A DNA stretch of 64,000 nucleotides from Panacagrimonas perspica. GTDB taxonomy: Bacteria > Pseudomonadota > Gammaproteobacteria > Nevskiales > Nevskiaceae. Below are positions 20,767 through 22,891 of this stretch, piece after piece. The stretch covers positions 186,001 to 250,000 of the forward strand of contig NZ_SOBT01000012.1 in the NCBI RefSeq assembly GCF_004364935.1, given 5' to 3'. The notes below the pieces were generated by a model. It worked only from the letters and a program-made list of their open reading frames with translations. It was not told the DNA's origin and ran no database searches. Each line of letters starts with the position of its first letter. Position 1 is the first letter of the stretch. Both the position numbers and the translations under genes were made by a program.

Positions 20767-21951
20767 GTGGATCCGAAAGGGCCGACCGAAACGCCGAGCG
20801 ACGTCCCCGAGGGGGCGAACGCCGTCGCGAGCGAAGCCCGGCCGGCAGCGGCAACCGCCGGCCGTTTCAGGAACCTGTTCGGCATGGATCGCGAGCGCCT
20901 GCGGGCGGAGTTCGCGTCGATCGGCGAGAAGCCGTTCCGCGCCGATCAGATCATGCAGTGGATCTACCGCCGCGGAGTCGACGACTTCGGTGGCATGACC
21001 AACATCTCCAAGGACCTGCGTGCGCGGCTCGAATCGAGCTTCGTCGTGCGTCCGCCGGAGCTGCTCACCGAGCAGAAGTCGATCGACGGCACCCGCAAGT
21101 GGGTGCTCAAGGTCGGCGGGGGTCAGGCGATCGAGACCGTGTTCATTCCTGAAAAGGACCGCGGGACGCTGTGCATCTCGTCCCAGGTCGGCTGCGCGAT
21201 GGATTGCGCCTTCTGCTCCACCGCGCAGCAGGGCCTGAATCGCAACCTGGATACCGCGGAGATCGTGGCGCAGGTGTGGTTCGCGGCCAAGGCGCTCGGC
21301 GGCGATTTCCAGAACGAGCGTGTCATCTCGAACGTCGTCTTCATGGGCATGGGCGAGCCGCTGGCCAACTACAACGCGGTGCTGCCCGCGGTGAAGATCC
21401 TGCAGGACGACTTCGGCTTCGGACTCTCCAAGCGCCGCGTCACGGTTTCGACGTCGGGCCTCGTGCCTTTCATCGATCGCCTGCGCGAGGACGTCGATAC
21501 GGCGCTGGCGGTATCGCTGCACGCGCCGAACGACGATCTGCGCAACGTGCTGGTGCCGATCAACAAGAAGTATCCCGTTGCCGAACTGATGGACGCCTGC
21601 CGACGCTACACCGCGCAGCGCGACCACAAGATGCACATCGTCTACGAGTACGTGATGCTCGATGGCGTCAACGACTCGCCGGCGCTGGCGCGTGACCTCG
21701 CCAAGCTGCTCAACGGCATGCCGGCCAAGGTCAACCTGATTCCGTTCAATCCGTTTCCGGAGACGCGCTTCAAGCGCAGCCGTCCGGAGGCGATCGAGGC
21801 CTTCGCCAACATCCTGCGCGCCAAGAACATCATCGCCACGACGCGCAAGACGCGTGGCGACGACATCGACGCCGCATGCGGCCAGCTTGTGGGCAAGGTG
21901 CTGAACAAGCAGAAACGCCGCCTGGGCGACATTCCGGTGAGGGCAGGCTGA
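20767..21951 (+). CDS. rlmN: Dual-specificity 23S rRNA/tRNA (adenine-C2) methyltransferase RlmN
   Basis: The 394-residue radical-SAM enzyme methylates C2 of A2503 in 23S rRNA and A37 in some tRNAs. The iron-sulfur Cys are 143, 147 and 150 (CAMDCAFC). The mechanistic pair is Cys136 (TLCISSQ) and Cys371 (DAACGQL). The start is taken as GTG 20767, because the family segment before the ATG at 20884 (RFRNLFG) is conserved; no ideal ribosome site is seen. The unusual feature is that the 3' end, from the Cys371 codon to the stop, is repeated 83 bases further on. The stop overlaps an ATG in ATGA fashion. Confidence 0.93.
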   Translation: MDPKGPTETPSDVPEGANAVASEARPAAATAGRFRNLFGMDRERLRAEFASIGEKPFRADQIMQWIYRRGVDDFGGMTNISKDLRARLESSFVVRPPELLTEQKSIDGTRKWVLKVGGGQAIETVFIPEKDRGTLCISSQVGCAMDCAFCSTAQQGLNRNLDTAEIVAQVWFAAKALGGDFQNERVISNVVFMGMGEPLANYNAVLPAVKILQDDFGFGLSKRRVTVSTSGLVPFIDRLREDVDTALAVSLHAPNDDLRNVLVPINKKYPVAELMDACRRYTAQRDHKMHIVYEYVMLDGVNDSPALARDLAKLLNGMPAKVNLIPFNPFPETRFKRSRPEAIEAFANILRAKNIIATTRKTRGDDIDAACGQLVGKVLNKQKRRLGDIPVRAG

Positions 21952-22109
21952 TGGCCGCACGCGTCGCTCGCCTTGCTCCGATCCCCACGCATGAAGCCGC
22001 GTGGGGCCCCTCGTCGGAAGCTCGCGCCGGGTCCTGCGGCCAGCTCGTGGGCAAGGTGCTCAACAAGCAGAAGCGCCGCCTCGGCGACATCCCGGTGAGG
22101 GCAGCGTGA
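21877..22109 (+). repeat. Direct duplication of the rlmN 3' end (copies at 21877-21951 and 22035-22109)
   Basis: Each copy is 75 bases, encoding CGQLVGKVLNKQKRRLGDIP then VRA plus one residue and TGA. The first 23 residues are identical, yet five codons differ at the third base (ctt/ctc, ctg/ctc, aaa/aag, ctg/ctc, att/atc). The final residue is Gly in copy 1 and Ala in copy 2. The spacer of 83 bases holds a perfect hairpin (ccccacgc/gcgtgggg, 21983-22006). The synonymous differences argue against a recent simple tandem duplication. Confidence 0.9.
21951..22109 (+). CDS. Small ORF carrying the second rlmN tail (possible remnant)
   Basis: A 52-codon frame starts at an ATG overlapping the rlmN stop (TGA/ATG sharing A at 21951). 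It ends at a TGA overlapping the pilF start. Residues 1-28 (from MAARVARLAPIPTHEAAWG on) resemble nothing known. Residues 29-52 repeat the end of RlmN, including a Cys equivalent to the mechanistic Cys371. It may be the stranded tail of a former rlmN allele rather than a functional gene. Its perfect overlaps with both neighbours could still keep ribosomes moving from rlmN into pilF. Confidence 0.35.
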   Translation: MAARVARLAPIPTHEAAWGPSSEARAGSCGQLVGKVLNKQKRRLGDIPVRAA

Positions 22110-22891
22110 TGCGCAACACGCTGGTCGCGCTCGCGCTCGTGATGTCGGCGGGTTGCGTTACGGTGAATTCGACCGGCGGGACGATCAAGAAGGAAGCGCC
22201 TGCGCCACGTGCCGCACCGGACATGCGCGAGGCCGCCCGTGTGAACACGGATCTGGGCGTGACCTACGCCCGCGACGGCAACTATGACGTGGCGCTCGAC
22301 AAGTTCTCGCGTGCCATCGGACAGGACGCCAACTACGCTCCGGCGCATTCCGGCATCGCGTTCGTCTACGCGCAGCGCCACGACAACGAGAAAGCCCAGG
22401 TGCATTACGAGCGCGCGTTGCAGCTTCAGTCGGACGATCCGATGACGCGCAACAACTACGGCGCCTTCCTGTGCTCGATCAAGCGCTACAAGGAAGCCGA
22501 GAAGCAGATGCTGCAGGCGGCGAAGTCGATCACGTATCGCGAGCCCGAGCGGGCCTACGCGAATCTCGGCGCCTGTGCGCAGCGCATTCCCGATCTGAAC
22601 AAGGCGGAAGGGTATTACCGCGAGGCACTCGCGCGCCGTCCGGACCTTCCCGATGCGCTGCAGCAGATGGCCTCGATCCTGCTTGAGAAGAGGGACTACG
22701 CGCGTGCGCGCGTATTCCTGCAACGCTACGAGAAAGTCGGCGAAGCCACGGCCGCGACGCTGTGGATGGGCGCCAGAATCGAATACGCGCTGGGAGACAA
22801 GGGTGCGGCGGCGGCTTACCAGCGCCGGCTGCGCATCGAATTTCCCGATTCCGAAGAAAGTCTGAGCACGTTGAGTCCGTCCGCCTCATGA
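22109..22891 (+). CDS. pilF: Type IV pilus biogenesis lipoprotein PilF/PilW
   Basis: This 260-residue outer-membrane lipoprotein acts as the pilotin for the PilQ secretin. The lipobox LVMSAGC places the acylated Cys at residue 16. Tetratricopeptide repeats follow from ~45 (NTDLGVTYARDGNYDVALDK, YAPAHSGIAFVYAQR, RNNYGAFLCSIKRY and others), about six in all, as in the family. The ATG at 22109 overlaps the preceding TGA, and rodZ starts within its own stop. The position in front of rodZ and ispG is diagnostic for PilF. Confidence 0.9.
   Translation: MRNTLVALALVMSAGCVTVNSTGGTIKKEAPAPRAAPDMREAARVNTDLGVTYARDGNYDVALDKFSRAIGQDANYAPAHSGIAFVYAQRHDNEKAQVHYERALQLQSDDPMTRNNYGAFLCSIKRYKEAEKQMLQAAKSITYREPERAYANLGACAQRIPDLNKAEGYYREALARRPDLPDALQQMASILLEKRDYARARVFLQRYEKVGEATAATLWMGARIEYALGDKGAAAAYQRRLRIEFPDSEESLSTLSPSAS

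Follow-up and report, generated by a model that had tools for sequence, protein, structure and literature searches.

A second rlmN tail before pilF in Panacagrimonas perspica is probably one flank of a hairpin element inserted at a coupled gene junction

Introduction

Why should the end of rlmN stand twice in front of pilF? The question is raised by a stretch of the Panacagrimonas perspica genome (contig NZ_SOBT01000012.1, positions 186,001 to 250,000; 64,000 nucleotides), the whole of which is referred to here as the window. A sequence-only reading of the locus had offered, as one explanation, that recombination brought in a relative's rlmN allele and stranded the old tail beside pilF. The evidence described below points elsewhere: the second tail probably flanks a small hairpin element that entered the junction of rlmN and pilF, where a phase-keeping mini-ORF would preserve the coupling of the two genes.

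Coupling by termination and reinitiation is known at ATGA and TGATG overlaps (PMC6728339, PMC10666635). Reinitiation drops to near zero once 20–40 nt separate two genes (PMC10666635), and an untranslated insert of the element's size would therefore uncouple a gene pair. Two kinds of short repeat have been described in such settings. The MIRU, as outlined in the summary of Supply et al. (1997) given in PMC12548453, is a short, apparently mobile repeat at coupled junctions, with an ORF coupled to its neighbour at a −4 spacing. Tagged REP/REPIN sequences (GTAG, CGTC) are small palindromes at operon gene ends, which are sometimes found in coding frames and sometimes in tandem with flanking DNA (PMC3733652).

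The doubled tail in the window

The features of the locus are collected in Table 1. The two tail copies are 91% identical over 77 nt at a spacing of 158 nt, and they translate to CGQLVGKVLNKQKRRLGDIPVRAG and CGQLVGKVLNKQKRRLGDIPVRAA, each followed by a stop. Twenty-three of the 24 residues are the same, and the codon differences comprise five synonymous changes and one non-synonymous change. In the alignment with E. coli RlmN (3rf9), Cys371 corresponds to chain residue 355, in ..DDIDAACGQL.., the known methyl-carrying (methyl-accepting) cysteine.

The spacer contains a perfect 8-bp stem with an 8-nt loop, CCCCACGC-ATGAAGCC-GCGTGGGG. When the sequence was read again, the two tails, the five silent codon changes, the 83-base spacer and the perfect hairpin were all as the sequence-only reading had described them. 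It had missed an outer pair of inverted arms, TGGCCGCA/TGCGGCCA, which encloses the hairpin in a larger folded structure; the left arm adjoins the rlmN stop and is an inverted repeat of the right arm, with which tail copy 2 opens. The mini-ORF runs from its ATG at 21951 to its TGA at 22109 and, again as described, shares a single base with the rlmN stop and another with the pilF start. The Shine-Dalgarno-like GAGGG of pilF sits inside the rlmN tail. An insert within the tail would truncate the RlmN C-terminus and one placed after it would split pilF from the coupling, so it is a duplication of the junction that leaves both genes complete.

In the 800 kb of the 5.4-Mb source genome that were searched, direct repeats of at least 30 nt at like spacing are almost absent elsewhere, in-frame protein repeats aside, and the doubled rlmN tail is far above chance. 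An assembly artefact is an unlikely source of the second tail because 12 other genomes share the same architecture.

Table 1. Features of the rlmN-pilF junction (positions are those of the window)
Feature	Position	Strand	Evidence
rlmN, complete gene with its own tail (copy 1)	20767..21951	+	TIGR00048, 455.7 bits; PDB 3rf9, E 2e-124
Tail copy 1, codons Cys371 to stop	21877..21951	+	Sequence comparison
Shine-Dalgarno-like GAGGG before the mini-ORF start, within tail copy 1	21939..21943	+	Sequence
Mini-ORF, 52 aa, TGATG at both ends, covering hairpin element and tail copy 2	21951..22109	+	Frame open in 13/13 rlmN loci
Inserted spacer (hairpin element), 83 nt	21952..22034	+	Sequence and comparison with relatives
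Left outer arm TGGCCGCA, inverted repeat of the start of tail copy 2	21952..21959	+	Sequence
Conserved core ATCCCC-hairpin-GGGGCCCCTCGTCGG	21981..22017 (stem 21983-21990 / 21999-22006)	+	Comparison with relatives
Tail copy 2, opening with TGCGGCCA (right outer arm)	22035..22109	+	Sequence comparison
Shine-Dalgarno-like GAGGG for pilF, from tail copy 2	22097..22101	+	Sequence
pilF/pilW, type IV pilus biogenesis lipoprotein	22109..22891	+	TIGR02521, 214.1 bits

The rlmN-pilF junction in relatives

A second tail, with the hairpin core in the spacer, was found between rlmN and pilF in 13 genomes belonging to four genera of one family: two of the window's own genus, four of g3, one of g4 and six of g11. 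In the carriers the core has the form ATCCCC-stem-loop-GGGGCCCCTSSTCGG, slightly shorter in the g4 genome. The core pattern read backwards, as a control, gave zero matches in every genome. Relatives with both tails intact, which the sequence-only reading had named as evidence that would count against recombination, were thus largely found, but the arrangement does not extend to deep ancestry: other relatives, including G001 of the window's own genus, have a plain junction and no second tail.

The repeat period at the 13 loci is 149, 152, 155, 158 or 164, in every case 2 mod 3. At all of them the mini-ORF start overlaps the rlmN stop, and at 11 the mini-ORF ends directly on the pilF start. The earlier observation that coupling down the operon had been kept is key to the case and is borne out by this overlapping mini-frame, retained at all 13 rlmN loci examined. 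The 13 cases may stem from one ancestral insertion and so be non-independent. In G075 (L075) and G080 (L077) a second short frame (MSRATGPARVRVATR and MSDVTDALCARGASR, respectively, each to its stop and read by hand) lies between copy 2 and pilF and overlaps both neighbours, and the chain to pilF appears to run via two mini-ORFs. One genome, G066 (L072), has three rlmN tails and two near-identical elements in tandem, a natural array expansion.

In most genomes the tails are mutually nearest relatives. The differences between tail copies are all silent in g3 (29 synonymous and no non-synonymous codon differences, summed over all comparisons), with 14 of 14 silent in G064. In g11 the between-species differences average 14.4 of 63 sites for copy-2 tails vs. 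7.9 for copy-1 tails, and copy 2 is rich in amino-acid changes, with 7 in G075 and G080. Copy 2 has kept Cys371 in 12 of the 13 genomes and has lost it in G026. Exchange between tails in tandem arrays, where each tail may at times form the end of RlmN, combined with a degree of selection on the mini-ORF, would account for these patterns. We infer that tandem exchange upholds the likeness of the tails within a genome.

The hairpin core at other gene junctions

When 84,980 species genomes were scanned for the core, 56 stretches were returned. The majority belong to the window's family and to Betaproteobacteria, and a few hits inside genes of other phyla look like chance matches. In the family and in Betaproteobacteria the core occurs at about 20 other gene junctions, mostly with a stop-start overlap, among them nuoF/nuoG, nuoH/nuoI, murG/murC, livH/livM, cheR/cheW, trpA/accD, ureB/ureC, tig/clpP, lolC/lolD and that between a DUF493 gene and lipB, the flanking genes being named from their translated sequences. 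Among these sites too are those downstream of hrcA, whose tail is doubled at 95% identity, and of fis, whose tail is likewise doubled. At L074 (G026:C14) doubled fis tails, at least two in number, form an array with the hairpin element that reaches the end of the contig and may continue beyond it.

The duplicated flanking sequence is generally about 11–115 nt long. Flanking direct repeats scoring at least 22 accompany 31 of the 56 elements, vs. 4.3% of mismatched pairings. Relative to the genes, the element runs in reverse in the betaproteobacterial cases, where the long repeats duplicate the start of a gene; in NuoG, for example, they cover roughly the first 25 residues. Pairing in the stem is conserved by changes on both sides, positions 5–9 occurring as GC, AT, CG and TA pairs. 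The outer inverted arms differ from gene to gene.

At the stringency used there are one or two copies per genome, a low number for an active element. The core found no match in plasmid, phage and viral-contig collections at the sensitivity used; Rfam gave chance matches only; and no mobilising enzyme or transposase was identified for the element. Literature searches for the core sequence, full text included, and for related terms, most subscription papers lying outside their reach, found no description of the element.

Empty sites are seen at murG-murC. In 30 genomes of one betaproteobacterial genus this junction is plain in 27, mostly with a 4-nt ATGA overlap, and filled by the element in two. 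The third filled site (G272, L195) has at the same spot an unrelated palindrome, CGCAGAGGCGC..GCGCCTCTGCG, read by a mini-ORF that overlaps murG and murC, with a repeated GATTGC..ATGA. Other copies of this palindrome are partly of the same coupled mini-ORF kind. This second palindrome family was seen in coupled mini-ORFs between operon genes at L195, L224, L227, L228 and, in the source genome, at about 528928 of G000:C1.

Phase of the mini-ORFs

Where a junction with ATGA or TGATG is repeated after a distance d, the first ATG shares its frame with the TGA of the repeat only if d = 2 mod 3. Outside rlmN this holds at 11 of the 14 junctions with a clear repeat (p about 7e-4), or at 11 of 17 (p about 0.008) if three alignments at chance level are scored as failures. 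The rule is broken at fis, at an isocitrate-lyase-like gene and, within the lipB tandem array, at the internal unit. A mini-ORF linked on both sides to its long neighbours was found at 16 of 34 testable non-rlmN loci, the other 18 being without one. As a base rate, two of 151 same-strand gaps of 60–260 nt in the source genome are doubly linked by simple gene calls.

The frame in which the core is read changes from locus to locus (MSHRAGAPRSGDASKANAA.. or VSYRAGAPLAGMRAKRIA..), giving two peptides, GDASKANAA or GMRAKRIAA. The mini-proteins had no match in Pfam. A coding role for the hairpin was considered and rejected: cores differ in length by single bases, and the frame that reads the downstream part differs too. 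Judged from these sequences, it is openness and phase that are conserved, and not the peptide sequence.

Origin of the second tail

The best reading of these sequences is that of a small mobile hairpin which would be tolerated where the duplicated junction and the in-phase mini-ORF keep the RlmN C-terminus, the pilF Shine-Dalgarno sequence and the coupling. Insertion would have copied a stretch of target that varied in length, about 11–115 nt, and we infer that the duplication arose together with the insertion. Copy 1 would then let rlmN keep its C-terminus, and copy 2 would let pilF keep its Shine-Dalgarno sequence and start. Ribosomes finishing rlmN would start again at the ATG at 21951, pass through the hairpin and copy 2 while translating the 52-codon mini-ORF, and start once more at pilF. 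Insertions out of phase would be lost. The peptide itself is probably without a fixed function.

The alternative that survives best, although we consider it unlikely, is that a palindrome resident beside the gene led to tandem duplication of its surroundings by template switching, with no insertion. In its favour, the outer arms are inverted repeats of the copy 2 start, tandem arrays occur, and in the source genome the tail of lysS is doubled around different hairpins. Against it stand the empty murG/murC sites, which have no palindrome, and the sharing of a single core by many genes, unrelated to one another, of two bacterial classes, which needs dispersal; moreover, 98 GTAG-type REP clusters in 800 kb of the source genome are essentially without flanking duplications. 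The gene-specific inverted arms could still mirror a template-switch step.

It is less likely again that the mini-ORF is kept as a useful small protein, e.g., a mimic of the RlmN C-terminus with its methyl-accepting Cys. The wholly synonymous differences between the g3 copies (29 vs. 0) and the retention of Cys371 in copy 2 of 12 of 13 genomes speak for such a protein, and a functional peptide in g3 is possible on this evidence. Yet copy 2 gathers amino-acid changes in g11 (7 in G075 and G080) and lacks the Cys in G026, and other elements read the core in two frames to give the unlike peptides noted above, for which Pfam has no match.

Recombination of a relative's rlmN allele, with the old tail stranded beside pilF, has in its favour that the copies differ almost solely at silent sites (five silent changes to one other in the window, 14 to none in G064). 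It is slightly less probable still and is already largely refuted. Allele exchange would not be expected to leave a conserved core between the tails, and the same core lies between duplicated flanks at many unrelated junctions, where gene starts are duplicated as well as tails. Since the core recurs elsewhere and empty murG/murC sites exist, insertion with duplication of the junction explains two tails without an imported allele. That the copies within a genome are usually nearest to each other speaks against a foreign origin of one tail. The sequence-only reading took the silent differences to mean that the copies diverged before becoming neighbours. This is not required: the mini-ORF reads copy 2 in frame as well, and tandem arrays such as the three tails of G066 allow copies to exchange.

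Tail duplication at the end of a gene is a hallmark of site-specific integration, and the duplicated rlmN tail fits it, but a remnant of a site-specific integrative element that restores a gene 3′ end (attL/attR) is very improbable here, given that the same core flanks many genes with a different duplicated sequence, gene starts included, and that just about 70–110 nt lie between the copies in 13 genomes.

Comparison with known systems

The element resembles the MIRU in being short and apparently mobile, in lying at coupled junctions, in having an ORF whose ends overlap the neighbouring genes, and in forming tandem copies. The overlap is present at the upstream end in 13/13 rlmN loci (directly at both ends in 11) and at both ends in 16/34 other loci, and insertion at a stop-start site (ATGA/GTGA) with empty relatives is seen at murG-murC, where 27/30 are empty. 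It differs in having a palindromic core, in occurring in either orientation, in the long and variable duplication of a flanking gene end, and in its hosts, which belong to another phylum, as Nevskiales-type Gammaproteobacteria and Betaproteobacteria, and are not mycobacterial (Solimonas, Fontimonas, Polycyclovorans, Nevskia, Dechloromonas, Azonexus and other Betaproteobacteria). From these descriptions it would work like a MIRU and is probably unrelated to it.

Like REP/REPIN sequences, the element is a small palindrome at gene ends. Unlike them, it is present in one or two copies per genome rather than many, and it has a longer composite structure, duplicated flanks and a mini-ORF in phase. 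The GTAG tag is absent from the spacer, and CGTC stands beside the stem in the window type and not in the TGCTCGG type. The overlaps at both ends of the mini-ORF are of the same kind as those of termination-reinitiation coupling; what differs from plain overlaps is that a new mini-cistron has been placed between two formerly overlapping genes.

Two further candidates were rejected. A MITE of a DDE transposon would have a fixed short target-site duplication and fixed terminal inverted repeats; here the duplication is about 11–115 nt and the arms vary by gene. A VR/TR pair of a diversity-generating retroelement does not fit differences that are C/T, G/C and A/G and are not confined to template adenines.

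Only tentatively can these cases be extended to a proteobacterial class of mobile hairpins that would target stop-start overlaps and duplicate the target over a long and varying stretch, from about 11 to over 100 nt, turning the end or start of a host gene into a coupled mini-cistron. The length of the mini-ORF would be tuned by selection, and unrelated palindromes would have converged on the same solution. As part of that extension, such a long and variable target duplication would perhaps be unlike known bacterial transposons.

These junctions offer a natural experiment for translational coupling. Core operons (nuo, mur, liv, ure, che, rlmN-pilF) carry inserts of about 100–160 nt at overlapping junctions and seem to tolerate them chiefly where an in-phase mini-cistron results. 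The MIRU idea is thereby carried from mycobacteria to Proteobacteria, with a long junction duplication added. Partial repeats of gene ends in operons can be insertion footprints and not relics of allele exchange, and small ORFs annotated at such repeats may be spacers.

Other repeats in the source genome

The lysS locus (L170, G000:C1, about 376739-376890) has the gene's tail (..FPQMKPEA and stop) doubled at a spacing of 120 around two hairpins of different sequence, with an inverted copy of the tail start directly after the first stop. Two degraded doubled gene tails around GTAG-type REP doublets lie on G000:C1 at about 446570-446760 and 157500-157735. A gene at 618900-624000 of the same contig has long, near-identical internal repeats (periods 282 and 423) and a run of N in the assembly.
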